Shown: piece by piece, positions 4,758 through 53,645 of the stretch
Position numbering within the stretch: position 1 is the stretch's first letter
Layout: each line of letters opens with the position of its first letter
The notes under the pieces: model-generated
What the model saw: the letters and a program-made list of their open reading frames with translations, nothing else
The model's database searches: none
What the model was told of the DNA's origin: nothing
Assembly (NCBI GenBank): GCA_902728285.1
Contig: CACVBU010001142.1
Location: 1,103,179 to 1,167,178, forward strand
DNA length: 64,000 nt
DNA from: Clytia hemisphaerica
Lineage: Eukaryota > Cnidaria > Hydrozoa > Leptothecata > Clytiidae
Reading direction: 5' to 3'
Made by a program: the position numbers and the translations under genes

Positions 4758-5215
4758 TGGTCGATCCGTCGATCCATTGATCCATTGATCCATTGATCCG
4801 TTGATCCATCGATCCATTGATCCGTCGATCCATTGATCCGTCGATCCATTGATCCGTCGATCCATTGATCTGTCGATCCTTGATCCGTTGATCCGTTGAT
4901 CTATTGATCCGTTGATCCGTCGATCCTTGATCCATTGATCCATTGATCCATTGATCCATTGATCCGTTGATCCATCGATCCGTTGATCTGTCGATCCATT
5001 GATCCATCGATCCGTCGATCCATTGATCCGTTGATCCGTTGATCCATCGATCCATTGATCCGTCGATCCTTGATCCGTTGATCCGTTGATCCATTGATCC
5101 ATTGATCCGTCGATCCATCGATCCTTTGATCCGTCGATCCGTCGATCCTTTGATCCATCGATCCGTCAATCTATCGAACGATTTAACGATCCATTGATCC
5201 GTCGATCCAGCGAAG
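4758..5215. repeat. 8-bp minisatellite GATCCRTY, about 57 units
   Basis: Continuous 8-bp units GATCCATT, GATCCGTT, GATCCGTC and GATCCATC, with occasional 7-bp slips (CCTTGATC). Because 8 is not a multiple of 3, all frames read as a low-complexity 24-bp cycle (DQWINGST-like on the minus strand), which leaves long open frames that are not genes. GATC occurs at every unit. Confidence 0.9.
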
Positions 5216-6453
5216 TTTAATGTTATGTTAAAACGGATAGAAACAGATGCAAGGGTAACTGAATGCAGCTTGATGACGTCAGTTGTGCTTCTTACACGGG
5301 TGATTAGCCAGGCTCTTGGACTTTACAACCTAATGATTGTATGACGTGTACTTTTTAGCTTGCTGTACGGAAACTTGTATTGGTAACAGCCATGCAGATA
5401 AAAACTCAGCGCAGGGCTGATCATCTGCTTTCAGGGAATTTCATTACATAATCTTTCCGCGCTTAATTATTGGAGGTATAATGGTGTCGTCTTTAAAAAA
5501 TGGTCTATTAAAAAAACAGTATAGAGCAAATCTGGAGTCCCGCAATGGGAAAGGATGGTGTATAGAAATATTTTAGAAATATACTTTAAACTTGCCGACC
5601 AAAAATTTTCTTATCATTCTATCCTAGCATAGAAAATTTTTTTGGTCTAAAAATCAAAAAGAAACTGAAAATTTCAAAAATCAACAAAATACTTTTTTTT
5701 TTTCTGACCGACCAACCCTCCTACAAAATCTAGTGTCGGGTTACGACAAACCAACATTTTTTACTAAAGATTATATCTAAATTTAATGTTTTTAGGGAAT
5801 ACATTACCTACAACAACAACAGTTACCAGTAAGTTGCGTTTAAAGTGGCCTTTTTTTTTAATAATACAACCCTGCCAGGACAGTCCGGTGCTTGAACTGC
5901 CAGTGTCAGGTGCTGAATTTTCTAAATTTTCGAAAAAACCCAACAATCGGCACCTGACACCGCCTTCGGGGCGTTGGGCGGTTCTCCGCCCTGTATTTTC
6001 TCTGTCACTTTTATCCACGTGACTGCGTTGAGTTTGGTGATCACCTGCTTATGCCTCGTAGTAAAAAGTGCCTAATGGTGCCGTTTTAGTTATACATTAA
6101 TTTAGGTTACGTAAGTGTAACCACGAATAATCTGGAAATCATGAACCGCGCTCGTTTTTCAACCCCTCAAATTTATTTTTCTGCGACACAAGCAAATTGT
6201 CACAAGCAATCAATCTGAACTGAACTACCCTGTATTTATTTATTATATTATTGCCAATTTTTATCGTACTTATTGAGTCGTTGGATTGGACTGAATATAT
6301 ATTGGAAAACCCTTTTCTGCAAACTGGGCAACAGCCAGGTGCTTTTCAGCGGTGCTGAGCCTGAGCACCCGACAATTTAACACCCAACTGTCGGGTTGCA
6401 AAATTTCTAAATTTCAGCACCCCACTGTCGGGTACGTCGGCAGGGTCGTGCTA
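5216..6453. other. intergenic with short MITE-like debris
   Basis: No gene recognised. At 5880-5965 and 6340-6440 there are short inverted copies of CACCTGACA/TGTCAGGTG and ACTGTCGGGT with AAATTTCTAAATTT between them, which look like scraps of one small palindromic element. Confidence 0.4.
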
Positions 6454-7141
6454 TAGTAGGGGGAAATTTGTAAAATCTCGATTTTTTTAGTCAAAGCACT
6501 TGTTATACATTTTTGGAAAGCTAAGGGGTAGGGGAATCAAAATAACTTGGGTGCCAATTTTGTTTCGGACACTTTGGTGTGATTTTCGGACAAATACGAC
6601 GGTCTCGGGCAAAATCATAGGGTGAAAAATTAGTGAAAATTTTAGCTTGAGAAAACGGAGACCTGTTGTATATTTTTGGAAAGCTCTCAAAAAATTAAGA
6701 TTAGTGATATATTGCGAGTATAGGTGATTTCAGTACCTAACTCGAGATATTGAGCTTCCGAAAGCGCAAAAACTGGACAAAATAGCTGTTTCTGGCTGAA
6801 AAACACTGAAAAACACTGTTTTTAAGGATTAATATCTCGAGGTAGGTAAAGAAATCACCTATACTCGCAATATATCACTAATCTTAATTTTTTGAGAGCT
6901 TTCCAAAAATATATAACAGGTCTCCGTTTTCTCAAGCTGAAATTTTCATTAATTTTTCACCCTATGATTTTTGCCCGAGACCGTCGTATTTGTCCAAAAA
7001 TCACACCAAAGTGTCCGCAACAAAATTGGCACCCAAGTTATTTTGATTCCCCTACCCCTTAGCTTTCCAAAAATGTATAACAAGTGCTTTGACTAAAAAA
7101 ATCGAGCGACCTCAAAAAAACGAACAAATTTCCCCCTACTA
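6454..7141. mobile_element. foldback element, near-perfect 0.3-kb inverted arms
   Basis: The sequence from TAGTAGGGGGAAATTTG rightward to about 6757 is repeated as its reverse complement from about 6826 to 7141, leaving a loop of about 70 bp. Arms agree over about 300 bp with scattered differences. CTA flanks both ends (6451-6453 and 7142-7144), a possible 3-bp target duplication. No coding capacity. The structure is a foldback or long-TIR MITE; a 3-bp duplication would suit a PIF/Harbinger-type origin, but that is inference. Confidence 0.8.
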
Positions 7142-7522
7142 CTAATACTATGCACTGAGAAAGGGATAATCAAACAATTTCTTATATTTTACCTCTTTAT
7201 TTTTCAACATTTTGAATCTAGTTGCTATTAAAACCTGATGATATTTTCATATTTCACCTTCAGCTACTTACAGACCAAGAATATGTCTAACCAATTCTGG
7301 CTCATGTAAGTTAAATCTCTAGGTCATTCTTTATTGAGACAGACAGTTTGAAATGGAGACCAAAAGCAACTTGTGTAAAATTACTGGGGGACAAAAACTA
7401 ACTTTCAACTTTCTATCAGTAATCAAGGAACTAAAGATTGCCATGAAACTACTTTGTTACCCTAATTTATTTTTCTTATTGCTTATACTGATTGAATGAT
7501 AGTATATTGCTTTCTATTCTAG
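7142..7522. other. region upstream of the first HECT mini-exon
   Basis: The true 5' end of the HECT gene was not found. A possible small exon at about 7275-7303 (ACAG before, GTAAGT after, containing an ATG) ends in phase 2 and so does not join the phase-1 exons downstream. It may be untranslated or chance. Confidence 0.3.
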
Positions 7523-7750
7523 CAACCTTCACTCCATTGGGCCTACCACCAATGGTGGCAAGAACTTTAGGTAATATTACCCCATTCTCATTTTATACTT
7601 TGCAGGGATTTAAAAAAATGAAAACAGCAAAAAATCAAATACAATTTTAAAGCATAATGCTTCCTCCGAATTAAAATTATTTCAATTTTCTGTTGATAGC
7701 TCATCCACTGCCCAGACCACCACCTCATCAAGTTGGCTTACCCTCCAACA
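7523..7750 (+). CDS. two Pro/Thr-rich mini-exons of the HECT gene
   Basis: Exons 7523-7570 (48 bp) and 7700-7750 (51 bp), each preceded by a pyrimidine-rich stretch ending in TAG and followed by GTAATA or GTAAGT. In phase 1 they read TFTPLGLPPMVARTL and AHPLPRPPPHQVGLPSN. The second shares QVGLPS with the repeated exons downstream, which suggests it is their diverged ancestor or sibling. Both are open in another phase as well, so support is from context and phase agreement. Confidence 0.55.
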
Positions 7751-10700
7751 GTAAGTAAACAACCTTTTACAGTAACTTTAAAATTATAAATTTTAAAATT
7801 ACTATTGTACTTATTCTTTTTTTATGGTTCAGTGACTTGATCTAGAAAGTTAGAAAAATAACTAGAAAGCACATATAGAAGACTCCTCAGAAGAGTCAAA
7901 AACCTTGGCGTGACCACTCTAGAAAAAATACCATTTATGAAACCAAAGCGAGTCCAATTTGGTGGACACTGCCTTCGCACATCCTCTGAAGTTATATCTT
8001 CATTAGTACTCTGGAAAACCAAGGTTTGTGAAACAGCAGTCAAGAAAATTTACATTTTAGTGATCAGGGCTGCAAATAAGAAGTTCAAGTCTTTCACTCA
8101 TCCAAAAGGGTTAAATACCAAATTTAAATATTTTAGGGGTTGAATTCTTTTAAAAGAACGTCATCATATATTCATTAAAGCTTGTTTTTTTCGGTAAACA
8201 TTTTTGAGTAGTTAAGATTCTATAGGTTGAATTTTGAATGTCAATCATGTTATTTTAGTTGTTCTTTGTTTGTTATTGGTTTTAATAATCAGGTAGGGCC
8301 ATAAAAGTATCACTTGTTTCAATGTGTTAAAATGTAAGAAAGTGGTGCTTAACCTCCATTAGTATATCTAGTAAGTAAATAACCCTTTTTACATAAGTAA
8401 ATTGTCTGTTATCTTTTTGAATGTGTTCAACTGTAAGCAATGGTGCAAAAGTTTTCTAAAAATAAAGTATAAAATGTCTAACTTTTCTTTTTTAGTAACA
8501 CAAACACAGAGAGAGCAAACTCGACAAGTTGGCTTGCCCTCCATTAGTACATCTAGTAAGTAAACAACCTTTTACATAATTAACTTGCCCATTATCATTG
8601 TGAATGCGATCAGCACTGTAAGAATTTGGTGCTTCATATAATCTAAAAATTAAGTATAAAATGCTCAATTTTCCTCTTTTTACTTCAGCAACACAAACAC
8701 ACAGAGAACAAACTCGACAAGTTGGCTTGCCCTCCATTAGTACATCTAGTAAGTAAAAACCTTTTACATAATTAACTTTCTCATTATCATTGTGAATGCG
8801 ATCAGCACTGTAAGAATTCGGTGCTGCATATAATCTAAAAATGAAGTATAAAATGCTCAACTTTCCTCATTTTAGCAACTCAAACACAGAGAGAACAAAC
8901 TCGGCAAGTTGGCTTGCCCTCCATTAGTACATCTAGTAAGTAAACAACCTTTTAAATAATTAACTTGCCCATTATCATTGTGAATGCGATCAGCACTGTA
9001 AGAATTTGGTGCTTGATATAAAGTATAAAATCTCAACTTTCCTCTTTTTACTTTAGCAACACAAACACACAGAGAACAAACTCGACAAGTTGGCTTGCCC
9101 TCCATTAGTACATCTAGTAAGTAAACAACCTTTTACATAATTAACTTTCCCATCATCATTGTGAATGCGATCAGCACTGTAAGAATTTGGTGCTTCATAT
9201 AATCTAAAAATAAAGTATAAAATGCTCAATTTTCCTCTTTTTACTTTAGCAACACAAACACACAGAGAACAAACTCGACAAGTTGGCTTGCCCTCCATTA
9301 GTACATCTAGTAAGTAAACAACCTTTTACATAATTAACTTTCCCATTATCATTGTGAATGCGATCAGCACTGTAAGAATTTGGTGCTTCATATAATCTAA
9401 AAATAAAGTTTAAAATGTTCAACTTTCCTCTCTTTAGCACCACAAACACAGAGAGAACAAACTCGACAAGTTGGCTTGCCCTCCATTACTACATCTAGTA
9501 AGTAAACAACCTTTTACATAATTAACTTGCCCATTATCATTGTGAATGCGATCAGCACTGTAAGAATTTGGTGCTTCATATAATCTAAAAATTAAGTATA
9601 AAATGCTCAATTTTCCTCTTTTTACTTTAGTAACACAAACACACAGAGAACAAACTCGACAAGTTGGTTTGCCCTCCATTAGTACATCTAGTAAGTAAAA
9701 ACCTTTTACATAATTAACTTTCTCATTATCATTGTGAATGCGATCAGCACTGTAAGAATTCGGTGCTGCATATAATCTAAAAATAAAGTATAAAATGCTC
9801 AATTTTCCTCTTTTTACTTTAGCAACACAAACACACAGAGAACAAACTCGACAAGTTGGATTGCCCTCCATTAGTACATCTAGTAAGTAAACAACCTTTT
9901 ACATAATTAACTTTCCCATTATCATTGTGAATGCGATCAGCACTGTAAGAATTTGGTGCTTCATATAATCTAAAAATAAAGTTTAAAATGTTCAACTTTT
10001 CTCTCTTTAGCACCACAAACACAGAGAGAACAAACTCGACAAGTTGGCTTGCCCTCCATTAGTACATCTAGTAAGTAAACAACCTTTTACATAATTAACT
10101 TGCCCATTATCATTGTGAATGCGATCAACAATGTTTGAAAAGGATACACAAAATATCAAATATTTCTCTTCTAGCTTTTGCAAACCCCAACGTTGGTATG
10201 TCGACATATCAGTCTGGAACATCAGTATATACTTCTACGAGTAAGTTGGTTAACTTTTCTTGTGCATTTAATTACATCTTTCTATGGACAAATCCATAGC
10301 AATAGAACAATGCCATAGTGTGATTTTTTTTTCAGAAAATAGGAAAAGAGGGGGGGGGGCAAAATGGTTTTCAAAAATCTAAGGGGGTAATCAAAAGGGG
10401 GGGGGAGAAAAAATGGCCCCAAAAAGTCTATGGGGGGAGAAAAAATGGCCCCAAAAAGTCTATGGGGGGAGAAAAATCTGGGGGCATTATTTTTTCTACT
10501 GTGGAAAAATATTTTTTCTCTGTAGCTAACTTTGTCTAACCTAACATCTAAAAAATATATATGCTTGAATTTTATACTCAATGTGAGTTTCAGAAAAGAA
10601 GAGGATTAACACAAGTGTTTAATATTACAAGATAACGTGAATAGAAGCATCAAGAGCAAAAATTGAAAAAGAAAATTTCTAGGGGGGGATTTTTTTTCAA

Positions 10701-13700
10701 ATCTCAGGGGGGGATTTAAATGGGGGGAGAGGGATTTTTTTCCCATTTTCTAGGGGGGGGGGACCAACCTACTAGGACACTATGAATGCTTTAAACAGGT
10801 GTTCCAACCCCCCTCTCAAAATCATCACCACCTATTTTTGCTCAAACCCCCTCTTAAAAAGGGAAATCTCCCAACCCCCCTATGTTTTATCCACCCCACC
10901 CCCTATTTTTTGTAAAATATTGACTTAACCCCCCTATTATATGACTCTGTATGCACCTCTTAATCAGTTTACCCTAAATTTTTGTGCTGGCCTAAGAATG
11001 TGTACCAATTAGATAAACATTTAGAGTGACAAAGAGAAGGAATATCTCTTTTTAATGAGTCGAAATAAACTTTCGGGAGCATCAGTAAATACTTCGACCA
11101 GTAAGTTGATGAACTTCTTTATGCATTTCAATGGATCTTTTCACTGGCAAATCTATAACAAACAATGGTACTGAAAACAACATCCATAAAATTCTCAATT
11201 TTTCTGTTTTAGCTTCTACAAATCAATTAGTGTCCACCCCATCTGCAGCAGCAGTATATACTTCTACTGGTAGGTAGCTGACTTTTTTCAATGCTAGAAA
11301 TTTGATACCTGTTCTTAGGGTATCTATCTTAAAATGCAAATCAAAGATTTTGCTGTTCACTAGAAAACACATAGTGTGCAAGGGGGCTCCAGGTCCCACA
11401 AAAAAATGCCACCTAGAACCCTCATAGTCCAGTACCCCCTAAACTTGAAATTTTCTGGCTTGTTTACATACACAAAATGCTGAGGTACTTGAGGTACTTC
11501 TTAAAGATTGAGCGGACTTTGTGTAAGGTAAATGTTATGTTATAAAAGAAACGCTGCAGGCAAAAAAATTTTAAATGACAGTTTGAGTTTATAAAATTGA
11601 CCTTCACTGTAGCCAAGACTAAAAAGTCCCACCTTAAAATTCTATGTCCCACCACAACTGTACTGATTTCTCCTCCCCCCCCCCCTAAAACGTCAAAACT
11701 TTAAAGTTTAGTCCTAACTAGACATCCAAAACCGAAATCAACAAACCCCCCTAAAGATAGGGGGTGCACACTATGAAACTTAATTGGGTAATTTGCTCCG
11801 AAAGGCTCTATTTTTTAGGTTTGGTGCCCCAATGATTTAGGTTTTTTTATTCTCTACATGCTCACACTTGTAAAATCAAGTATTTCAAAAGAATTCTGAA
11901 TAAGACATCACAAACTGACCTATTTGTTCTTAACTTGAAGGAGTTTGAGTGAGGTATTCAATCTAAAAGGTGTATTATGAGTATTTTTTACCATTTCAAG
12001 AATTTGGCAATTTTTTTTTATTCTTCTTTTTGTTCAAAATGTCTGCGTGAAGGACTGCTATCTTTTTTTTCTATTACAGCCCCTCAGCTACACATGCTTC
12101 CAGCTCAGCCAATAACAAACAGTTCAATCTTAAATCAAAACTCTTTTGAACAAAATCTTGAAAGCTGTATAAATTCAGTCACAGACGTTCGTAGGATGGC
12201 AGCCCAGCCAGAACCGAGGTCCAAAACCTCCAAGAAAAGAAAAAGGCCTGGGCGAGGACCAGATATTTCAACTGTAAAGTTCAAATTCTATCATCTACCT
12301 GTTGGATCCAGTATTCCTAGATTCAGTGCCAAGAAAGACGGTTATTTTGAAAAACTTTTTCTTGATCACAAAAATGATGGATATGGTGAGTTTTCGAACT
12401 GATGACAATGTTTTTGTATTACCCAGCTGATGTATGAAAAGAATGCATTGGTCATCATAGCTACCTGACCAATTTCACTTACCTTACAAAGTAGATTAAT
12501 TTAAAGGCTTTTTAAGCAAAATATCAAACATAAAGCTAAAGGGACTGAAAAATGCCAAGATTTTAATTTGTTTAACTCAAAATATTATGGATCTTCCTTT
12601 TTCATAGGTTTTCCAGGCGTATGCTGGAATTTCAACAAGAACGTCTACAAAGATAGCTCATTGTCATTGGATTTGACCGAGAGCCAATTTTCAGACACCT
12701 TGCAACAACTTTTTCCAAAATTGCAAGGGCAAATACCAAATTTTTTTAAACTGTCAACTAATCGTCAAGCACAACATGTGACAGTCAAGAAACCAACCTG
12801 CTTGAAAGAAAGTGGTTATTCTGGCATCTATCTCGTCACAACAATGACTGAGATTCCAAGGAACTCCAGTATGTAATTTTACATCAATCTTTTTTTAACT
12901 CTTGGGTACCTCATACTGCCTCATTGAGAGGAAATGGAGAAAATCTAAAATCTAAATGAAGGGGTTGGTATTAAAATGGGTGGAAAAATTTCGATGAGTA
13001 TGGCAATACAAAGCAATTAAGGCAAAAAAGGAACTTTCAAAAAATATTTTTGCAAAATTAATTAGCAGGAGGAATGGTTATTAAAAAAATTGAGAGGACG
13101 ATTTAATTTTAAATGTAAAAGAGTCTTGAATAATGAAACTTCCTTTTCCCTACAAAATGCAGGTAGAGCACTATCAAGTTCCACCCTGATGTTCTATTCC
13201 TTCTATAAAAGAACCTTTTACAAGCTATGTGGCGAGTGAACTGGTCTTTATATTTATTTGATCTTTTTCTTTGTTAAAAAAAATCAAGTTAACTTTCTCT
13301 TTCTCTTTGTTCACACACGTGCTCCTCGTTACAAAACGTTTCTCTTATTTTATCATCATCATAGTTTTTTTACAACCATGTATCGATATAGAATAAGATT
13401 CTCAGAAAATGATATCTAACTGAGACAGGCTTGTTTAAAGTTAAGCTTGCTTTATTCACTTAATGACAAAACAGGTTCTTATGCTAGGCACTTGTTACCA
13501 CTGAGACATGGGTGTTTTGTTTATGCAGTGTCAAATTACTGCAATTTTAAGGCAAAAAAAGACCATCCTATTTAACTTCTATGAGTGGTTCTAAAAATTA
13601 AGCTTTGGGATATCGAAATTTAGCACAAAATTTTTTTTCGTTTTTTCCGTCACCCGGTGGACCGGAAACAAAAATATTTTTCGGGTTCGCCCGATTGTCA

Positions 13701-16700
13701 CAAATGCTGGTAAAATCTTGACTCAGTGGATTGGGCTTATTAATAATGGTTTCAAAAAACCTTTGAAGCTGTAGCCATGTAAAACCAATTTACATCATTT
13801 TGAGGGGGGCTGATTTTTTTCCAATCACTTAAAATACTTCGTTTGATATAACTGTAGACACACCATGTAATGATGTAATGACACACCAATAAAGATGTTC
13901 TTTTAACTTTAATTTAAAAGGATACGCTAAAAATCTTAAAAATGAAGGGGTAGTACAAGGTAGTAGGCTTTCTTTCAATTCTGAGGGTGGTAAATCATTG
14001 AAGGGTAAATTAAGATGAGTTTTGATATTTCGTTTTCAATCTGCACATTTTGCAAGTTTATGTTTTTTATTTGCATTTTTATTCATTATGGCTTTCAAAC
14101 AGATGGAGCTGGAACATCATCATCATCATCACATCAGATTTCAGTTTCTACTAACATCAATCAGATCCTCCCAACTGCTGGTAAGTCATCTCATTTGGCG
14201 CATTCAAAACAATTCAATAATTAGTTTATAGTTTTGTCTATCATTAGATTCTTTTCTTCATAAAAGTACATCATATCTCGGTTTATTTGGTGTGTTCAAC
14301 TGCTGCCATTGATGTTGATGTTTTGAACATCTTTAATCTGAAATGTGGTCTTTATACTAAAAGATAAAATTTCCAAACCTAAACATCAGCTGTGTTCCAA
14401 TAAAAAAGACGTTATATCTTTGTAGTATTAAATGGTAGACAGACACTGCAAGCGTTTTCGTGTTTGTGCTAGTGTTAAAGTAAAAGCTCTCTGGGACTCT
14501 GGTTTATTAAATGGTTATTTTCGTGAAACACCTCCTCAAATTTGAAACTCCCTTATGTATCATGGCCTCTGCTATTGCCTAGTAAAATAATATTACAGAT
14601 CATCAAACTTCTAGTTTGGTCAGGCTTGTTAATTCTGCTTTGTTTTCCAAATTCAGGTAGCTTATCATCCAATTCTAATAATGTAATCTCCGCTAACCCA
14701 ATCATCACAAACACTGGTAAGTCTAGTAAGGATTCACTACTCAATACAATTAATAGGATAAAAGAGGTTTCCTTTACTCAACCTTGAGGTCCTCTAATAA
14801 ACCTCACTTCGTCCGTCTGTTTGCCCATCTGTTCGTTACCAGCTTTTCTTTAGAAAATTTTATTTAAAAAATAAATATTCAAAATCAATTTTTCACTGTG
14901 CTTGTGAGAATTGTGCAGAAGTTTGCCTTGAAAATCTTAAAATCGAATTAGGAATATTTGGTACGTTTTAAAGCTTTTGTTGTTGTTTGGGCAGCGTCAT
15001 CAGAAAGAGCGCCAAATTCTGATATGGATCCATATATAAAACATCAAATTTGGTCAAATGGTTCCAAAGTTATGAGCTTTTTCATTTTTGCCTGGAAACG
15101 CTTGTGATGACGTCATCAAAAAAACTTTTGACCACCATAACTTTTGATAGGAAATTCAACTTTTCAAGGCATGTTTTATACCTCAATTTTCATCAGAATT
15201 TCATGCTCTTTCTGATGAAATCATCAGATTTTGAAAATTTCCAAAAAAATTATTTTGTGCCCAGCCACCTGATGACGTCATCTGACAGGTGGCCAGATGA
15301 CATTAAGTGTATTCCAGTGCATTCCAAAAATATTGGCAGTCTGCACATTTTGGTTAATTACTTTTGAAGGAAAAAATAAATAATCAAAAGGAATGCCTCG
15401 TTGGAAAGATAGTTCTGAGTGGAAAAATTTCAGGCTTTAAAATTTCGAAAATGAAAATGAAAAATGAAGAAGTTTTTTAATGGACCAAAATATTTTATAC
15501 TTTTCTGAAACTTTAAACTTCGCTGACTTCAAATATGTATTCAGATTTTTCATATCTTTCTTCGATCAAAAGTAACAGCCCATCAAAGTAAGCTTAAAAT
15601 GGTCAAAAAGGGGCAAAATGGACCCACTTCGGAGGAATATAGCTTTTGATTGAAGAAAGATATGAAAAATCTGAAAACATATTGGAAATCAGCGAAGCTC
15701 AAAGTTTCAGAAAAATATAAATTGAAGTTTTTTGGCCAAGTAGAAAAAATCTTTATTTTTTCTTCTTCATTTTTCATTTTCATTTTCGAACTTTTAGAAA
15801 GATTTTAAAGCCTTAAATTCTTCCACTCAGAACTATCTTTCCAACGAGGTATTACTTTTAATTATATCTTTTTTCTGTCATGAGCAATGTATTAAACTGT
15901 GTGGACTGCCAATTTTTTTGAAACAAAGTTTAATAAGGTGTTAATGCTTAAAATTAAGTTTTAGATCCCCTATGGGTCATCTGTGCCAAATTTCAGCCTT
16001 TTATCACAATCTGAAGTATTGTGCTAACAGACCTCACTATAGGAAATTGATTCCAAAAGAGGAGAATCAATTGTGATTTATTGAATACATCTAAATTTAA
16101 TGCAGAAAATTTTCTTTTTGTATTTGGTCCATTTGGTATTTTTGTAACACATTTCTGGTTACATAATTACAGACCCTTTAAAATCAGCCGATAAGAATTG
16201 ATGTTTAGTACCAAACATAAAGCAAAAAGTCATCAAAAGTGTTAGAAAGTGTTATTGAATTTCCATTTTTAGCTTCAACACAACAAAGTGAAGCATCTTT
16301 AAGTCACATTCAACTACTATCTCAACAAATAAACAACCCCCCAAGTAAGCTTCCAGACATCTCAATTTTACTAATTTTGGAGAAATTTGGAAATAAATGT
16401 CCTACTTTTTCTAATGTTTGAGTATTTTGTCCTATTTGTCCTAATTTTTAGCCAAAAATTTTTGTCAAAATTTTTCAAAAGTGACAAAGAAATTGGCTAA
16501 GAGGCCTGAAGTTGTATTAGTTCTATTTTGAGAGTGTACATTTAAATTTTTGCTTGGAAAAAAACTGTTTCTTCAAATTATCATATCAATTCTTCATGTG
16601 TCCTGGAAAAAAACACAAAAAATTATGCAAAGAAAAATCCTTAAATTCACTTTTGATGACTTGCTTGTGAAAAATTGGGAATTGAATAATTTTTTCAACT

Positions 16701-19700
16701 ATCAAAGAATTCCCGTATTACAGAAATGTACATAATAGAATAAAGATTAAAGATCTTTCCCAATCGTGAGAATTCTGTAACACGGGAATTCTTTGAAATT
16801 ATTCAATTCCCAATTCCCAATTTTTCACCAGCAAGTCATCAGGATTTTATTTTAAAGAGATTTTTGTACGCTATTCCGATACACTGTACATTAGAATTAC
16901 AGATATCTAACACAACTTTCTTTTCTTATTTTAGCACCTCGGCCATTGGTCATGTCTTCATCACAATCCGCCCGACCATCGACTAATACCACCAATACCA
17001 CAAGTAAGTTTTATATTCTGAAAATTATTGAATTTTTGGAAAAGCTGTTGACCTAGAAATGAATATCATATTTAAACTGAAAATGAGGAAAATGTCTTTC
17101 TTACTACATTAAGGGCACAAAGTTTGGCGATAACTAATTTTAGGATTTGCCAAACTCGCCAAAATTAGTTCTCTGATAGTTACAATGCCCCTAAAACCCG
17201 TCTACTCTTCTGTGCTTAATTTTGACCCCCCCCTCCCCCATTTTATGGTTTTTCTTCCGGATTTCCACCCCCTGCTTAATTTCCCCCTAGGCATGGAAGA
17301 CAAACCTTTTATTTATCTTTAGCCCAATCACCAGTGACATTCTCAGACAGTGAAGATGAGGATGACAATCAAAATTCCGCAAGTAAGTTTCATATCTTTA
17401 TCCAAAATATTCTGTTTTTATTTAAAAAAACGAAATGAAGTTTACTGTTTGGTCTACAATAGTTGACATATTGCCTACGTGGTTTTTCCAAGCACTTATA
17501 AATGCCTCCTTTAGACGGTGGCATTAAAATCGATTCAAATTGAGTTTTAAGAACTCGATTTGAAGGAAAACTTTAAGTTCATTGCTTCTTTCACATCACA
17601 AAAAAAGTAAAAGATCATAATTCTGCCAAAGAGCCAAAGTAAACATTTACAAGTCTGCTTTCTTCTTACTTAAAGGGACATAACAGTACTTGCGAAATTT
17701 GTAAACAAACTGTATGCAGCGGATACAAAATCAAAACAAATGTCACATGTCAAAATAAAAAATCAAACCAAATATGGCTAATTTTGATTGTTCAATTGTT
17801 TTACAAGTTTGTTTTGGACACGTGATTTTAATTGTTCTCTTTAAAATGACACGTGGTTCGCGCAATGTTTACATTTTACTACTGTAATGTCCCTTTAAAC
17901 CTATAAAAAACAATAAAATGAGTGAAACTCGGGCTAGCCCTGCACCCAAAGGGGGCGGGGTTAAGGCACCCTAGACCCCCCAGCCTCGATTATCCAATTT
18001 ATGACTGGATGTCGCGGCTAACACCTTTGCTGAAAACTCAATTACAAAGCAGAAACGGTGGCATTGCTTAGCTCTAGTTTAGACGGGCCACTTTTTGCCC
18101 TGCCTATTCTAATTGTGAATTAAAGTGGGCTGTCTAAAGTCGATGTATAGCCCTCTTTTGACGTCAATGCAATGTCTTCTTTCAAACCTTTACAAGCAAA
18201 GATTATAACTGCCAACTTTGTGCCCTCTTTCTGCCTACTCTAACAATTAGAATAGGCAGGGTAGAAAGTCGGCTGTCTAAACTAGAGCTAAGTGCTTGGA
18301 AAAACCCCTGCAACACTGCCAAGTTTTTTTATTATTATTTTTTATTGTTCCTAAAAGATGACCATCATTATCCTGTTTTTCGAGCAATCTTTTTCAACCG
18401 AATGGAAGCTATTCAGGGTAGAATTTTGGCGTTCGAACATGGGCGCACCCCCTCTTTATTCTTTCACTCAAAATTATCTTTTCAACGAGGTATTACTTTT
18501 GATTGTATCTTTTTTTCTTCAAGAGCAATGAAATAAAGTGTGCGGACTGTCAATTTTTTTGGAATATACTTGTTTTTTAAGTGGGGTAAAAATAGAATTG
18601 GATGTGGAGATCTTTAAGGTCATAGAACCTAATGTTAGAAGTGCCTAATGTTAATAAAGTTGGGTAACATACTTTTCATACAACTTCCTTTTAGGATTTC
18701 CTGAACTACAAACTGTTCGATCCGTTCGAAATTTCTTCATTTCTCGGGCCAACATATTGATGTACGTGCTGCCCCAGTACATAAATGACTCAATTTTGGA
18801 CGATGGTCTAAATGTTGAATTTGACGGGGAACCAGCGATCGATTTTGAAGGTTTGACGAAAGACATGTTCACGTCTGTCTGGAGGTCTGTGAAAGACAAA
18901 TATATGTGTGGCGATAACCTCAAGAGGTTTGTGGTGACACCAGGGAACATCCCTACCAAAGAAGAGCTCGAAGCCCTTGGAAGGGTTCTACAGCATGGTG
19001 TTACCCTGCAACGCTTTGTCCCAATATTTATAAATGAGGCACAGCTCTACATGGTCTTAACCACAGAAATTCCAACTGATCAAATGGTTTTGAAAACTTT
19101 TCTGTCTTGTTTTTCAGAACGAGAATCTGATATCCTAAAACATGCTATTGATGCCACAATCTTTGATCCGAAAATGAAAGATTCACTGATGTCGATATTG
19201 ACCTCTTTTCAAATAAGAGGGCTTCCAGAGCCAAAGGATTTCAAAAAGTTTTTGTTTGATATTGGTTATGTTGAAATTATCATCAAACCGTATTTCTTTT
19301 TACGGAACATTTCAAGGAAGATTTGGTCCATCAATGAGAAAACATTTGTTGATCGTATCCAATGCTTGAAGCCAACAGGTGAAAAACTTGTCAAGGCAAT
19401 TATTAATGGTGAACCGAGTGATCCTCACGAAGATCGTGTTCTTGATTTTTTGAAACGATTCTTTTATGATCTTGATGCTGAAAAATCTGGGACCATTACC
19501 CGGTTTATTACAGGAATGGAGGTGTTGAATGACGAAACGTTTATAAACGTTGAATTCAATGGTGAGATCAATGTTAACCTTATGTTCCCAAAATCAAATC
19601 CATGCGGGAACACGCTACACTTGTCACGGTATTATTTAACCTTCGAACATTTATCAGACTCAGTCAACACCATAATAAATGATCCATCTTCTTGGAAAGA

Positions 19701-19716
19701 TTTTACCTCTAGATAG
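7523..19716 (+). CDS. HECT-type E3 ubiquitin ligase gene built from phase-1 mini-exons
   Basis: A multi-exon model read from splice sites. Exons: 7523-7570, 7700-7750, nine 60-bp exons in a tandem array (8496-10070), 10175-10240, 11213-11269, 12080-12385, 12608-12868, 14103-14180, 14657-14716, 16273-16344, 16935-17003, 17323-17382 and the terminal HECT exon 18695-19716. Every junction is phase 1, so all internal exons are symmetric, and most donors are GTAAGT-like. The N-terminal part is rich in Ser, Thr, Pro and Gln. A basic KKRKRPGRG stretch and an unrecognised conserved-looking block lie on the 12.1-12.9 kb exons. An acidic SDSEDEDD precedes the HECT domain. HECT ligases accept ubiquitin on a cysteine and pass it to substrates. 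The layout resembles G2E3-like ligases. The 5' start is not located, and which mini-exons are used cannot be told without RNA data. Confidence 0.75.
7751..8349. other. intron sequence before the exon array
   Basis: No domain or splice-bounded exon recognised. Short frames on both strands look like chance. Confidence 0.4.
8350..8370 (+). pseudogene. decayed 3' remnant of a repeated exon
   Basis: The text AACCTCCATTAGTATATCTA, followed by GTAAGTAAATAACC, matches the last third of the array exons plus their donor and intron start. The upstream two thirds and the acceptor are missing. This is an eroded tenth unit of the array. Confidence 0.6.
8496..10070 (+). repeat. tandem array of nine near-identical 60-bp exons with their introns
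   Basis: Units repeat every 181-193 bp. Exons: 8496-8555, 8689-8748, 8876-8935, 9057-9116, 9250-9309, 9438-9497, 9631-9690, 9823-9882 and 10011-10070. Each is exactly 60 bp, has a polypyrimidine-TTTAG (or TTCAG) acceptor and a TCTAgtaagtaaa donor, and is open only in phase 1. Each encodes a 20-residue unit close to TQTQREQTRQVGLPSISTS. The introns are duplicated too (for example GCGATCAGCACTGTAAGAAT in almost every one). Two variants of the exon start alternate: CAACACAAACACACAGAG and CACCACAAACACAGAGAG. Spliced together, the array would add about 180 residues; any subset can be skipped in frame. The last intron diverges after GCGATCAACA at about 10127, marking the array edge. Confidence 0.85.
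10175..10240 (+). CDS. HECT gene mini-exon (Ser/Thr-rich)
   Basis: A 66-bp exon after TTCTCTTCTAG and before GTAAGTTGG, phase 1 in and out. It reads AFANPNVGMSTYQSGTSVYT plus STS. The last half is echoed by the 11213-11269 exon and by a decayed copy ending at 11100. Confidence 0.6.
10290..10960. repeat. G-run and C-run rich intronic repeats
   Basis: Runs of 6-9 G with the repeated text AAAAATGGCCCCAAAAAGTC (two direct copies at 10405-10470), later mirrored by C-runs such as AACCCCCCTA at 10800-10945. Short, imperfect and non-coding. Possibly a nested MITE of the G-run type also seen at 33.69 kb. Confidence 0.5.
11061..11100 (+). pseudogene. decayed copy of the 10175-10240 mini-exon
   Basis: GGAGCATCAGTAAATACTTC plus a GTAAGTTG donor match the end of the 10175 exon. 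No acceptor in the right phase is visible, and in phase 1 from the nearest AG the frame stops. It looks like a duplicated exon that has lost function. Confidence 0.5.
11213..11269 (+). CDS. HECT gene mini-exon
   Basis: A 57-bp exon between TCTGTTTTAG and GTAGGTAG, phase 1 in and out, reading ASTNQLVSTPSAAAVYTST. Its AVYTST end is shared with the 10175 exon. Confidence 0.6.
11270..12079. other. intron with C-run repeats
   Basis: No exon recognised. Short C- and G-run segments at 11380-11450 and 11670-11770 resemble the repeats at 10.3-10.96 kb. Confidence 0.4.
12080..12868 (+). CDS. two larger HECT-gene exons encoding an unrecognised folded region
   Basis: Exons 12080-12385 (306 bp) and 12608-12868 (261 bp), phase 1 throughout, flanked by CTATTACAG/GTGAGT and TTCATAG/GTATGT. 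The first carries a Gln/Asn/Ser-rich start, then a basic SKTSKKRKRPGRG stretch that could be a nuclear localisation signal, then VKFKFYHLPVGSSIPRFS. The second carries GFPGVCWNFNKNVYKD, LFPKLQGQIPNFFKLSTN and ESGYSGIYLVTTM. The mix of hydrophobic and aromatic residues suggests a compact domain rather than a linker. I do not recognise the family. Confidence 0.7.
12869..14102. other. intron
   Basis: No exon with matching phase and splice sites recognised. AT-rich, with short poly-A and poly-T tracts. Confidence 0.4.
14103..14180 (+). CDS. HECT gene mini-exon
   Basis: A 78-bp exon between CAAACAG and GTAAGTCATC, phase 1. It encodes a Ser run (GAGTSSSSSHQISVS) followed by NINQILPTA. The ATC/TCA triplet run could slip in copy number. 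In another frame the same triplets read as six histidines, which is an artefact. Confidence 0.6.
14657..14716 (+). CDS. HECT gene mini-exon
   Basis: A 60-bp exon between AAATTCAG and GTAAGTCTAG, phase 1, reading GSLSSNSNNVISANPIITNT. Confidence 0.6.
14787..14870 (-). repeat. reverse-oriented end of the GACGAACG repeat family
   Basis: AAACCTCACTTCGTCCGTCT and CTGTTCGTTACCAGCTTTTC are the reverse complement of the terminal text of the repeat at 2700-3085 and 48.4-49.92 kb, including the GGTTTATTAGAGGACC-like end. Confidence 0.5.
15325..15920. mobile_element. 0.6-kb foldback element in a HECT-gene intron
   Basis: The arms are inverted copies: TATTGGCAGTCTGCACA ... GCCTCGTTGGAAAGATAG ... TCAGATTTTTCATATCTTTC on the left, and their complement on the right, ending TGTGGACTGCCAATTTTT. 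The loop is short, near 15575-15640. A partial copy of one arm lies at about 18465-18560. GATGACGTCATC palindromes lie just to the left (15110, 15270). Non-coding. Confidence 0.75.
16273..16344 (+). CDS. HECT gene mini-exon
   Basis: A 72-bp exon between CATTTTTAG and GTAAGCTT, phase 1, reading ASTQQSEASLSHIQLLSQQ then INNPP. Confidence 0.6.
16654..16842. mobile_element. small foldback element in intron
   Basis: TGATGACTTGCTTGTGAAAA, GGGAATTGAATAATT and AAAGAATTCCCGTATTACAG are repeated as their reverse complement after a loop of about 30 bp. About 190 bp in all, non-coding. Confidence 0.65.
16935..17003 (+). CDS. HECT gene mini-exon
   Basis: A 69-bp exon between TTATTTTAG and GTAAGTTT, phase 1, reading APRPLVMSSSQSARPSTNTT then NTT. 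Confidence 0.65.
17323..17382 (+). CDS. HECT gene mini-exon with acidic patch
   Basis: A 60-bp exon between TATCTTTAG and GTAAGTTT, phase 1, reading TQSPVTFSDSEDEDDNQNSA. The SDSEDEDD run is a typical CK2-like acidic patch, here just before the HECT exon. Confidence 0.65.
17481..18306. mobile_element. MITE with GGTTTTTCCAAGCACTTA ends
   Basis: The left end GGTTTTTCCAAGCACTTA at 17481 is mirrored at the right end (18289-18306). Inside, 18064-18119 and 18243-18294 form a second inverted repeat (CTCTAGTTTAGAC ... CCTGCCTATTCTAATTGT). It lies in the last intron of the HECT gene and contains another MITE at 17670-17898. Confidence 0.6.
17670..17898. mobile_element. nested MITE bounded by TTAA
   Basis: Ends are TTAAAGGGACATAACAGTA and its near complement TACTGTAATGTCCCTTTAA. 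TTAA at both borders fits a TTAA target, as used by piggyBac- and Kolobok-type elements. 229 bp, no coding sequence, inserted in the larger MITE. Confidence 0.65.
18465..18560. repeat. partial copy of the 15.3-15.9 kb foldback arm
   Basis: TTTTCAACGAGGTATTACTT and AGAGCAATG ... GTGCGGACTGTCAATTTTTT match the right arm of the foldback at 15325-15920 with a few changes. Only one arm is present. Confidence 0.6.
18695..19716 (+). CDS. terminal exon: complete HECT catalytic domain
   Basis: A single exon after CCTTTTAG, phase 1, with stop at 19714-19716. It encodes about 340 residues, the usual HECT length. The N-lobe start is recognisable (LNVEFDGEPAIDFEGLTKDM). The C-terminal loop reads NPCGNTLHLSRYYLTFEHL. 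The cysteine (codon at 19603) sits where HECT enzymes have the ubiquitin-accepting cysteine in T-C-x-N-x-L-x-L-P, but the preceding Thr is Pro and the final Pro is Ser. It is therefore probably active but diverged. The domain is closest in style to G2E3-like HECT proteins. Downstream is repetitive DNA, so this is the gene's 3' end. Confidence 0.9.
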
Positions 19717-35185: not shown

Positions 35186-38100
35186 TCACATGGAACAACA
35201 TGCTTCAATATACCTGACAACATTGCCATAAATATCAATGCCATCTGATTGAGCGCTTGCATTTATTTGCTGATGTAGATTAGATAGCTGAGTTGGTGTA
35301 AGCGGTGCAACATATCGAGGCACAACAACTTTGATGTCATCAGGCTCCACTAGATTGTATGAATCTAAAATTTCTTCCACAGTAATGTTAACCTCATTGA
35401 TATCACGTCTAAATAGATTATTCATTGCGGTTGAATTTTGATGATAACATTTGAGGCTTCCTTGATACCATAATTGCAGAGGGCTGTTATTTTTTTCTGT
35501 GCGAACAGGGTGGTTGTTGTGGGCAAATTGCCAATTCTTCAAGGCATTTTGGATGCGGGGGCTGAATACATATTGTAGGCTAAACATATGGATTGGGTTC
35601 AGGATATCCAGTATATTGTGGTCCTCCATATGGTAGAAAATGACATAGTATTTGTGCAAGACTTTCCAATAGACATCTCTCCAGAGTCTTTCAATCCTTT
35701 GGTTGTGTACTGAGCGCCCACGTATACAACTTCCTCTTCTTTCCCCATTAAAAACTTCCATCATATGCTCAACATGATTGAATTCCTTCCCCTTGTCAAG
35801 TCTAACTCTGCTAGGAACACCAAAATCTTGCACACTTTTAATAAATGTGAACAGAGCAGAGGAAGCCTTGTTATCTGTAGATAAATTAAGTTGGGAGACA
35901 AGTCTTGAAAAGCCATCAATCTGACCAAAAACAACATATCCCCATCTGAAGAAAAAAAATAACCAAACACATTTTAAACATACTCCTCTGTAAAGATTGT
36001 TTTTTTATTTTACTTTATTCTTGTATGAGAATTTAAATTATACATGTTGTCTGGAAAATAATAATGAGACCAACCCTAACGACTAAATTGATTAGTCGAA
36101 CTAATTGAAAATCGTAAACAATTGAGAATTCAATTAGTTTGATTAATTGTTTCAAGTTCGACAAAGTTCGATAACAGGATTTGTTCGACAAGTTCGACAA
36201 ATATATTAGTTTGACTTAATATATTCAATATATTCGACAAAGTTTGATGATAGGATTTGTTTGACAAGTTGTGGATGTTCAAGGAAAAAGCATGTTAACG
36301 TGCGTTACAAAACCATTTTTGCACTGAAGTTTCCCAATTTTCACCCTTTATGACTGGTTCGATAGCAACAACTAAAATTAATTGAACTTAATCGAACTAT
36401 TAGTCTTTGAGAAAAGTTCGATTAAGTTCGATTGAAATTAATCGAACTTATGATTTTGAAAAAATATACCTTTTTTCAAAGAGGACGTCCTGTTGAATAA
36501 TTATGTAGTCCAGCCATAAAAACAATGATAGAGCCATGCATAATTACTGTATCATACATATTGTAATAATTATGCATGGTTTTATCATTTGTTTTTCTGC
36601 TGGACTACATAATTATTCAAAAGGTCTATTGTGAGAATTCTATTAAAGTGAGAATTCTATTAAAGTTCGACAATCGAACTTAGTCGAACTTCGACTAAGT
36701 TCGACAAAGTTTGATTAAAAAAGTGGTTTGATTGGTTCGATTAAAGTGGTCTGGAATTTTATTTACAATTTTCCCTATTTTGACTTTTTTTACAGTCTAA
36801 AATCTAAAACAATCTTTCTGCAATTCAAGATTCATAAAGCGCACTGTGCACTAATTAAATTCTGTTTTTACCGATTTGGTTTTTCAAATTTAAATAATTA
36901 TAATAATAATCTTTTATTATTATATTTTATATAATTTTCAAAAATATTAGATGTTTTTTATGTTTGATTCTTTTTATTTTTATTATATATATAATCACTT
37001 TTCTTTTCTAAAGGACAGATTCCTAAACTTTCACATATATATATAAATAATTCAACAACAAGTCTGAAAAAAGATGGGAGAGAAATCATGAAAAGGACCA
37101 AAAGAAAACAATCCCTGTTGTATGTTTGATTATTTTATTTCATCTGGTGCAACGGAAACAAAATTTTTTAGGATAGGCCAGAAAGAGACTAAGTTTTTGA
37201 CTTGCCTTACCTTACTAAAGCATGATTAGAGTCAATATGCCATAAACTATTAGGTGAAGGCACACTATATTGTCGCCGCTTAATTACTTGAGCCCAACGT
37301 TGTGCTGCACCAACAGGGTCTATTTCTGCTAAAAGCTTTTGACATCTGTTGCGTTGCAATATTATTGGTGGTTCCAATCTTTTAAGATGAGCAATCATCT
37401 CTCTGATTCCTGAGTTTGGAAAATCTTTGTTTATTTCCATCATAATCAGCTTTGTTTCCTCATCACTCAATGTGGTGTATCTGTCACGAATCGAAGGCAT
37501 TTTTTCTCTATTCATGAAATTGTGAATTGTATTGTAATGAAGCTTCTGACAGTGTAGCTCTAAAGCTCTAAAACAGCATCTAATAACATGAAAACCAGAA
37601 TATGATTCTTCAATGGGAATCAAAACTATAAAGTGCACTTACAAACATCAATTTGTCAGATCTAACAAAATTTATAACGGCACTGTCATCATTGACAATA
37701 AAACAAACAATATTCTGTCAAGAGCCTTGTAAACATTCCAACAACTTCCATCGAAATGATCTATCAAAGCTCAGTCTACCATTTTAGCGCGGTCCAAGGA
37801 TTGAGCCGAGAACTCTCGCAGAGCGCCCGAGCTCCCACGCAGCGCACACCGCGGGGATGAAAAACTTCAATCTGTCAATCATTTTCTCAAGCGAAGAGTA
37901 CGCAAAGCGATTCTAGCTTTACGATAGTGCCGCGGATCATCAATGGATAGTATTCAATTATCATTATCCCTTTATTTTCATTACTAGAACTTTTGCAAAA
38001 AAAAGGAAAAATAGAAAAGTTGTATTTTTTACTGCTCTATTCACATACTGAATTTGAAAGATCTTCTATGTGGCGTTTTTTTGCAAACTTCAAAAAACTG

Positions 38101-39587: not shown

Positions 39588-41657
39588 ATGGCCGAAAACA
39601 ATCAAGAAAAAACAACTTTTGAGACTTTCAAATTATGGTCTGAGGTTTCATTGAGAAGATACTTAAATTCACATGGAAAAGATACTAATGGAACATTTGA
39701 TGAACTTGTTGCAAGGTAAAAAATTTTCAACAAGGGGATTTGAACTCTCACTCAGTCAATTTCTATATTTCAAACACCGTACATCAATAAATTAGTTGAT
39801 TGACAGCTTGTTTTATCAGTTCATAAATAGTTTTTTTTAACTTGTGGTTTTAAAAACAGTTTTTTCTTTTTCAGGACCTATGTCGCTCACTGTGAGAACG
39901 CTCCTCTTGTGCCTACAAAGCAGAGCGAAGAAAAAGCCCTTGAAGGAGAATATGTTCTAAAACTAAAAGTTGGCGAAAAAAGGATCAAAGACCCCTTGAA
40001 AATTCAATACGGATGGCTCAAAGAGAAGGACGCAATTACGAAATGGCCTTCAATGTACTATCAAGATATGTCTCGCTATGTAAATCTCCAGGGTCCTCAG
40101 TTTATCGCTCAACTTGACAGAGAATATAAACTAGGAAAAGCATTCAGATATTTCACCGACGGATTAGTTGACGACATTTTGTATTTGGAAATTGACGAGG
40201 ATCTATGCTTTATTAAAACACAGGTTTGCAGATCTCAGGCAATGAGGAAAAAAAAGTATCATGTTTGGGCCGTTTTGACAAAGGATAAAAGTGATGAAAC
40301 ACCTGGAGGAGAAATTTTAACGGCGTGTTGTGGTTGCTTGGCTGGTTTAGGTGGCATGTGCAATCATCTCATCGGAATGCTTTTTAAAATTGAAAATGCT
40401 GTCACCAAAGGTCTGACTAAACCTTCCAAAACTAGTCAAAAGTCTACTTGGAATGATCGATCTCGTGGACGAGCTAATCTTGTTTTTGGTCCAGTTGAAG
40501 AAGTTGTTTTCCAAAAAAGTCATTATTTGAGCGAATCGGATCGTGACCTTAGGGAAGAGGCAAAAGGTTTCAGAGCGTTCGAGGGGTCCCTCTATAAACA
40601 ACATAAAGAAGAACTTAAAGATTCTAATAAACTTCGTGATAGACTTTTTCAATGCTTAAAACCAGATATTCCAAACAGTCGTTTTGCTGAATTTATGGAG
40701 GAAAAGCCATTAAATAGAAAACAAATTCAAGATTTTGACCTACCAAAAACAATATTTGAATCAAAAATGGCATATACATATAACACTGAATTAAGTCCTA
40801 AAGAAAATGCTGGACTATTTACATATGAATTAAAAATATCTAAAAAAAATATCCTAGATCTCAGTGAAGCTACAGTTGGACAAGGTGAAACAGAAATTTG
40901 GAAAAATCATAGACAAGGTCGGATGACAGCTTCAAACTTTCACTCCATTTTCACAAAATGTGCAACACTCCGAAAAAATCCTGAGACTGATTGTACTTCC
41001 CTTACAAATACTCTTTTGGGTAAGTCAGGCCCATCAGGTAACGAGTATGCTATAAAACACGGAAATAATTTGGAAGAACGTGCTAGAAGAAGATATCGTC
41101 ACATCATGAAATCCAAGCATAGAAAGTTTGAAGTAAAAGAGGCTGGTTTATTTCTGTTTGAAAAACATCCTTTTGTCGGTGGTTCACCAGACGGTCTGGT
41201 TTCATGTGTGTGTTGTGGAGAAGGAGTCTTGGAAATTAAATGTCCATTCAATGTCAGGGACTCTGTTCCTAGTCACGAAAATGTTGCTTACTTAGTTAAA
41301 AATGACACAACTGGTCTGGTGAATTTAAAACGAAATCACAATTATTTTTTTCAAATACAAGGTCAATTAGGTGTTACAGGTCGCAAGTACTGTGATTTCT
41401 TTGTGTATACAAGACACGGGGAATATATGGAACGTATAAAATTTGAACCTACGCTATGGACTGAGATTTTGGACCGTTTAAATTGTTTCTGGATTGACCA
41501 TTTTTGTATAAAAATACTTCTTGGTAATGATGACGAGGAATCTTTAACTCAGGCTACAAGTGGGCTCAAATTGACAGATGACGTTAATGATGGAAAGAAG
41601 GAAAACTCTCACCCTGTCCAAAGTGGCATTCCAAATAAAAAAGCTAAATATCAATAA
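39588..41657 (+). CDS. SAP - SWIM finger - YqaJ nuclease protein of the transposon
   Basis: Two exons: 39588-39715 (ATG at 39588, phase 2 out, GTAAAA donor) and 39875-41657 (CTTTTTCAG acceptor), about 636 residues. The start choice rests on the first in-frame ATG of exon 1. The N-terminal LRRYLNSHGKDTNGTFDELVAR fits a SAP DNA-binding helix pair and crosses the splice junction. A SWIM-type zinc finger reads CCGCLAGLGGMCNH (C-x-C-x7-C-x-H). The C-terminal half has the YqaJ/lambda-exonuclease-like motifs GRMTASNFHSIF, GGSPDGLV, LEIKCPF and QIQGQLGVTG, where the Asp, Glu and Lys residues form the metal site. It probably processes DNA ends during or after transposition. It converges with the transposase gene. 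Confidence 0.85.
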
Positions 41658-52876: not shown

Positions 52877-53102
52877 AACGTTTAAATATATTATAAGTTT
52901 AAAAGGATAACGTTTAAATATATTATAAGTTTAAAAGGATAACGTTTAAATATATTATAAGTTTAAAAGGATAACGTTTAAATATATTATAAGTTTAAAA
53001 GGATAACGTTTAAATATATTATAAGTTTAAAAGGATAACGTTTAAATATATTATAAGTTTAAAAGGATAACGTTTAAATATATTATAAGTTTAAAAGGAT
53101 AA
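52877..53102. repeat. perfect 32-bp minisatellite, seven units
   Basis: Seven units of AACGTTTAAATATATTATAA plus GTTTAAAAGGAT without visible changes until the last unit runs into AAAATTTAAACAG. The identity implies recent expansion. Confidence 0.9.
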
Positions 53103-53305
53103 AATTTAAACAGAGTAGCTTATAAGTATAGAGTCCAGCAGTCTCACTCACTCACCATCAACAATTAAGTTTGTTTACGTTCATTAGACTCTGTCTTTAG
53201 GTGAAATATTTTGTGCATAACACCAGTAAGTTGATGGGAAAAAACATTGATCGTGCGAGTGTGAACTGTCTCAATATGTAGGGGAGGGGGTCCCGGGGGG
53301 GGGGG

Positions 53306-53495: not shown

Positions 53496-53645
53496 GACGG
53501 GACCTCCGAAAACGCGAACGAGACCTCCGAAAACGCGAACGAGACCTCCGAAAACGCGAACGAGACCTCCGAAAACGCGAACGGGACCTCCGAAAACGCG
53601 GACGGGACCTCCGAAAACGCGGACGGGACCTCGGAAAACCGATCC
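53496..53645. repeat. 21-bp minisatellite GACCTCCGAAAACGCGAACGA
   Basis: About seven units of GACCTCCGAAAACGCGAACG plus A or G, drifting to CGGACGG at the right. The plus strand stays open as repeated DLRKRER because 21 is a multiple of 3, but there is no gene context. Non-coding in my view. Confidence 0.85.

Follow-up and report, generated by a model that had tools for sequence, protein, structure and literature searches.

In the SmPoMuc genes of Schistosoma mansoni, tandem repeats are made up of a short exon with the introns on either side, the intronic part of these repeats is more than 94% identical, and the number of exons varies between genes and between transcripts (available text of PMC2576457). 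The same text describes modular spider silk genes as tandem exon-intron repeats under concerted evolution. In schistosome micro-exon genes, very small symmetric exons permit protein variants to be made through alternative splicing (PMC4350168, in the part available). Many homologous tandem exons are also present in human OBSCN and in Drosophila hydra, nine of them in the latter, and NEB and NBPF20 are named as outliers in the same source (PMC9013439, in its accessible portion). For animal HECT ligases, no exon arrays are mentioned in the available text of PMC2837046, in which the word "intron" is absent. The statement of the initial annotation that no such array is known in a HECT ligase agrees with our search of a single open-access collection, where titles and the beginnings of abstracts, including those of PMC2837046 and PMC11353290, revealed none. 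A search of a single open-access collection for symmetric duplicated exons gave no match either.

The locus described here lies in a stretch of 64,000 nucleotides of Clytia hemisphaerica DNA, which was analysed as a whole and is referred to as the window. Nine tandem exons of exactly 60 bp each are located there on the forward strand and span positions 8496-10070. As had been reported in the initial annotation, the exons are equal in length and have intact splice sites, with AG in front of and GTAAGT behind each of the nine. Its observation that the intervening introns are duplicated too was likewise borne out: the eight introns have lengths of 133, 127, 121, 133, 128, 133, 132, and 128 bp, in this order (range 121-133 bp), and are part of the same repeat. 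Tandem Repeats Finder recognized the array with a period of 193 bp, 9.4 copies, 90% matches, and 4% indels. As in arrays of the SmPoMuc and silk type, an exon and its flanking intron are repeated head to tail, and the introns are as alike as the exons. Exact 15-mers of the exon consensus were found only at the nine array exons on the plus strand, and none on the minus strand. Other tandem repeats of the window are positioned at 4763-5166 (8/24-bp repeat), 52877-53110 (32 bp, 99% matches), and 53497-53639 (21 bp, 96% matches).

The first array exon (8496-8555) encodes ITQTQREQTRQVGLPSISTS, where the first residue presumes a preceding A. The second (8689-8748), fourth (9057-9116), fifth (9250-9309), and eighth (9823-9882) exons all encode TTQTHREQTRQVGLPSISTS. 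The products of the remaining ones are TTQTQREQTRQVGLPSISTS (third exon, 8876-8935), TPQTQREQTRQVGLPSITTS (sixth, 9438-9497), ITQTHREQTRQVGLPSISTS (seventh, 9631-9690), and TPQTQREQTRQVGLPSISTS (ninth, 10011-10070). Read in phase 1, the array peptide is (I/T)(T/P)QT(Q/H)REQTRQVGLPSI(S/T)TS, again with the first residue presuming A at the end of the previous exon. All nine exons are open when entered in phase 1. That they are open in this phase only, as had been claimed earlier, is not correct, because phase 0 is also open in seven of the nine and phase 2 in one. The array donors are of equal strength, with a score of 6.7 in all nine exons. An alternative upstream donor GTACAT, 9 bp inside the array exon, had a score of -2.3, compared with 6.7, in the three units for which it was calculated and is unlikely to function; its use would give an exon of 51 bp, which is the length of the exon at 7700-7750. 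Two antisense ORFs, 8492-8866 (minus strand, 124 residues) and 9434-9898 (minus strand, 154 residues), run across the array and are probably a by-product of the repeat.

An older homolog of the array exons is present in the same gene. It is exon 4 of the gene model (7700-7750, forward strand), 51 bp long and of phase 1-1, and it encodes HPLPRPPPHQVGLPSN. The local alignment of 7713-7779 with 9070-9148 spans the exon end, the donor, and the start of the intron, and in this alignment the older exon is 9 bp shorter than the array exon. The older exon is followed by the same intron start, GTAAGTAAACAACCTTTTAC, that is seen in most array units. A broken tenth unit was recognized at 8347-8495 (forward strand). 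It consists of 24 bp of the 3' end of the exon with the donor, followed by the intron; it has no acceptor of its own, and its intron ends with the acceptor that belongs to array exon 1. Compared with the array consensus, the broken unit has 3 differences in 24 exon positions and 30 in 123 intron positions, and just one of the first 23 compared positions of the intron differs. Across the unit, 4 of the first 47 positions are different versus 29 of 100 in the rest (p = 0.006, with the 47-position boundary picked after the data had been seen). Such low divergence at the exon end, the donor, and the intron start (region 8347-8418) may represent a conversion tract or constraint near the donor.

A second cluster of duplicated exons, also on the forward strand, is composed of exon 14 of the model (10175-10240, 66 bp, phase 1-1), the related exon 15 (11213-11269, 57 bp, phase 1-1), and a dead copy at 11073-11100, which corresponds to the 3' half of exon 14. 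The dead copy, aligned as 10213-10312 with 11073-11167, has kept its donor, and no acceptor entering in phase 1 was found for it when inspected by eye. A possible relic of exon 19 near 13690-13713 was not counted, as the similarity is merely 24 bp long. The older exon, the broken tenth unit, and the second cluster point to repeated birth and death of exons; gain and loss of symmetric exons seem to have taken place on more than one occasion in this gene.

The similarity between array units is mosaic. Stretches of 181 columns with one difference were found at an offset of one unit, 368 columns with three differences at an offset of three, and 332 columns with four differences at an offset of five. 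Units 2, 4, and 5 have one and the same exon sequence but 6 to 8 differing sites in the introns, and between units 1 and 6 there are four differing sites in the exon and one in the intron. Exon and intron differences thus disagree between pairs of units, and the pattern fits repeated unequal exchange or conversion inside the array, as expected for arrays of the SmPoMuc and silk type. Units that are about 90% alike form an array of a type that is hard to assemble, and the copy number could have been inflated through misassembly of one or a few units. This is highly improbable, as the eight exon and 16 intron site differences, the four indels, and the mosaic would not be produced by a simple assembler duplication.

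The best explanation of the locus, to which we assign a probability of about 0.62, is a recent amplification of a symmetric phase-1 exon together with its intron, by unequal exchange, in a divergent gene of a HECT-type ligase, with lengthening or tuning of a linker as the result. Unequal exchange in a tandem repeat would have amplified one symmetric 60-bp exon along with its intron, and each array exon would add 20 residues rich in Thr, Gln, and Ser, probably disordered, upstream of the HECT-like region. Since all exon borders found in the gene are in phase 1, symmetric exons could be gained, lost, broken, or skipped with the frame unshifted. With borders of one phase, changes in number would be tolerated, and the length of the linker could drift or be tuned. 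We infer that the exon copy number varies. It follows from arithmetic that a protein may carry from 0 to 9 units, as proposed in the initial annotation, and that individuals may differ in copy number; both are predictions.

Alternatively, the array could be a neutral 193-bp repeat that expanded recently and carried the exon along, so that most or all of the nine exons are skipped, or are included without consequence. The splice sites and the frame would then seem to be kept merely through the youth of the copies. The divergence of exons and introns agrees with such an origin. Across the eight full units, the diversity (pi) is 0.045 in the exon and 0.049 in the intron, and variable sites amount to 8 of 60 in the exon versus 16 of 133 in the intron (p = 0.82). 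A substitution level without difference between exons and introns had been named beforehand as a finding against the use of the exons, and it is the level observed. In a neutral simulation with 26 substitutions (by the author's count) and four indels placed at random, the copies stayed undamaged in about 7% of runs. The conservation of splice sites and of exon length, put forward earlier as an argument for use, loses much of its force in the light of these values, because the introns are as conserved as the exons and the chance of no damage under neutrality is 0.07; conserved splice sites are weak evidence of use here.

Other features of the array speak against neutrality. The sole frame open in all nine exons is the frame required by the gene, and the length is a multiple of three, a coincidence whose chance we estimate at about 1 in 9. 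The older homologous exon at 7700-7750 is likewise in phase 1. All four indels of the array are intronic and missed the exons (P = 0.18 for this alone), and the nine exons do not stand out from the rest of the model in their donor and acceptor scores, which are inside the range seen there. Nine exon variants were counted, five synonymous and four non-synonymous. A non-synonymous count as low as this has P = 0.053, 0.075, and 0.091 for a transition weight (kappa) of 1, 2, and 3, respectively; the synonymous excess (five of nine variants) is not significant and was rejected as proof of coding. Coding use is suggested by the phase agreement, the nine undamaged copies (about 0.07 if neutral), and the weak synonymous excess taken together, and the sequence of the array is compatible with constraint, without proving it. 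All in all, we regard a purely neutral repeat as unlikely, and amplification of a used exon as the preferred reading.

The gene model around the array consists of 23 exons coding for 922 residues, and it ends in the HECT-like exon at 18695-19716. All 22 internal exons have a length divisible by three and phase-1 borders. This agreement is partly by construction, since the 14 non-array exons were picked by eye while exons of the form AG...GT open in phase 1 were sought. For six of these 14, including the three longest, phase 1 is the sole open entering phase, and the phase of the gene therefore has support outside the array. An automatic scan of 5601-18800 for open exons with a length divisible by three, for which splice weights were entered by hand and thresholds were fixed after the model, revealed 23 phase-1, 11 phase-0, and 6 phase-2 candidates on the plus strand, and one of each phase on the minus strand. 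Among the 23 phase-1 candidates are all nine exons of the array, along with some alternatives that overlap; in total, 17 of the model's 22 internal exons were recovered. Exons 1, 3, 17, 18, and 20 each fall short of a scan threshold; the donor of exon 17 is weak (4.8), as are the acceptors of exons 18 (3.7) and 20 (3.8). As to the first exon of the gene, no phase-1 candidates were found at the scan thresholds upstream of 5796 in the scan starting at 5601.

The two longest internal exons, 16 (12080-12385) and 17 (12608-12868), are on the forward strand and open when entered in phase 1 only; no Pfam match was found for them. Exons 18 to 22 (14103-14180, 14657-14716, 16273-16344, 16935-17003, and 17323-17382, forward strand) are short, of phase 1-1, and mostly rich in S, T, and N. 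The ORF that surrounds exon 19 gave a Pfam match to EAD6 with E = 0.02 and 15.5 bits, where the cut-off is 27; the match was considered to be due to chance.

The last exon, on the forward strand as well, is open from 18697 for 339 codons, which are followed by TAG. Pfam gave no HECT match for it with E up to 0.1 or up to 10. With E up to 10, the unrelated GSAP-16 (E = 0.14) was reported for 18730-19713, and three shorter pieces gave nothing. When 177635 PDB sequences were searched with E up to 10, only two matches were obtained, and both were Rsp5 (E = 0.25 and 0.35); the C-terminal third of the exon matched nothing in PDB up to E = 10. The exon was also compared with lobe profiles of our own, made from two N-lobes and three C-lobes (the sequence of one of the C-lobes was checked). 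In a set of 5101 sequences, composed of the last exon itself, 5000 shuffles thereof, and 100 further ORFs from the window, it ranked first for both the N-lobe and the C-lobe profiles, with E per sequence of about 5e-6 and 4e-4, respectively, and the best shuffles scored near to it (6.7 and 12.5 bits, compared with 7.2 and 13.2 bits for the exon). The start motif of the N-lobe and then the C-lobe stretch around Cys follow each other in the expected order. The catalytic Cys of HECT domains sits about 30-40 residues from the C-terminus, and the candidate Cys, part of NPCGNTL, occupies position 37 counted from the C-terminal end, itself included.

Single-sequence structure prediction of the last exon reached a mean pLDDT of 33, too poor to search with. 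No relatives of it were confirmed in viral_contigs and genome_contigs, which cover viruses and prokaryotes and were searched with a single-protein query for close relatives only. The last exon is likely HECT-like, as judged from its sequence; the HECT assignment of the gene is weak. Of the earlier description of the array as part of a HECT ligase gene, the HECT-like last exon stands, but the sequence is too divergent for Pfam to call the domain. We infer that the array exons are spliced in, and into the transcript that also contains the HECT-like exon.

Several other ORFs with Pfam matches are located elsewhere in the window. On the minus strand, an ORF of 363 residues at 27751-28842 matches protein kinase PF00069 (E = 3.7e-8, 33.5 bits), barely over the cut-off of 31.7. 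Two ORFs at 35186-37638 (minus strand) match consecutive parts of the integrase core domain PF24764, with E = 1.2e-67 and 3.2e-5; the latter match is just under the cut-off, and the pair is perhaps one split element. An ORF of 608 residues at 39831-41657 (plus strand) contains a YqaJ-like domain (PF09588, E = 1.9e-18). A DDE_Tnp_4 transposase (E = 8.4e-38) with HTH_Tnp_4 (1e-13) and an adjoining THAP frame (7e-6) is coded at 44144-45803 (minus strand), and an ORF of 311 residues with a C2H2 zinc finger (PF13894, E = 1.4e-6) at 60446-61381 (minus strand).

The array peptide of 180 residues contains 23% T, 17% Q, and 14% S, and its mean hydropathy of 0.385 is below the disorder boundary of 0.431 according to a simple charge-hydropathy calculation. 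From this composition, the array stretch is probably a disordered linker rich in T, Q, and S. Its most likely role is that of a flexible spacer upstream of the predicted catalytic part. Given that the exon borders are all of one phase, the length of this spacer would be adjustable by 20 residues at a time.

It can also be imagined that the nine exons form a regulated alternative array, from which splicing includes a variable number, or one, depending on tissue or stage. As all nine have a length divisible by three and fit phase 1, any subset keeps the frame, and the short, near-identical introns would make skipping plausible. However, little would be gained by a choice between units whose nine peptides are nearly identical, and there is no graded strength among the donors, all nine of which score the same. 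No unusual RNA structure was revealed in the stretches folded, namely unit 4 (z = 0.73), its intron (z = -0.44), and units 4-5 (z = 0.49), and these stretches alone were folded. A frame block of the Dscam type against joint inclusion is absent, since with all nine exons 60 bp long joint inclusion stays in frame. The Rfam scan of the window at gathering scores gave no match. Regulated choice among the units is rather improbable.

The units could also act as a motif array, in which candidate LC8 sites anchored by TQT recur with a period of 20 residues and make the linker a multivalent scaffold pairing two ligase chains. TQT is present in seven of the nine units (1-5, 7, and 8), spaced at multiples of 20, and is absent elsewhere in the 922-residue model. 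TQT is the typical anchor of LC8 motifs, and LC8 has some multivalent partners, among them Drosophila ASCIZ, in which there are seven sites (available part of PMC10046861); the anchor and multivalent partners are also described in the accessible text of PMC12057147. Against this, units 6 and 9 carry PQT, so that the anchor shows little sign of being strongly constrained, TQT is missing from the older exon at 7700-7750, and in a repeat so rich in T and Q the motif would be likely to occur by chance. We therefore consider the LC8 scaffold very doubtful. Both regulated splicing and the motif array are compatible with the preferred reading of an amplified linker exon, and their odds are not exclusive. 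Still more speculative is the possibility that the copy number is a heritable and fast-changing setting of the linker, in which individuals differ, with the units as docking sites, e.g., for LC8. If it were true, unequal exchange would directly alter the valency and the reach of the ligase.

The old exon, the broken unit, the nine young units, and the second cluster with its dead member are all located within 4 kb. The locus is a compact natural case of birth, homogenisation, and death of exons in a gene with borders of a single phase. If the array exons are used, a disordered linker of an enzyme could change its length by steps of 20 residues with no frameshift. If they are unused, the locus calls for caution, as the intactness of splice sites would mean little where tandem copies are young.

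The exons of schistosome micro-exon genes are shorter and mostly dissimilar to one another, whereas nine near-identical copies are present here. Silk repeats form most of the silk protein, whereas the array described here would be one linker. In spider silk genes, the introns are more homogenised than the exons (PMC2576457, text available), and here both are homogenised equally. According to the same text, the SmPoMuc exon has 27 bp and its unit, which contains microsatellites, about 1 kb, and the genes belong to a mucin multigene family; the array of Clytia has an exon of 60 bp in a unit of 193 bp and resides in a HECT-like gene. The homologous exons of hydra are mutually exclusive first exons, and OBSCN codes for a giant sarcomeric protein (PMC9013439, accessible portion). 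With animal HECT ligases (as presented in the available text of PMC2837046), the gene shares a HECT-like last exon with the N-lobe motif and the C-terminal Cys in order, and it differs from them in being too divergent for Pfam. The architecture is already described in other genes, and the HECT-like host is a new instance of it.
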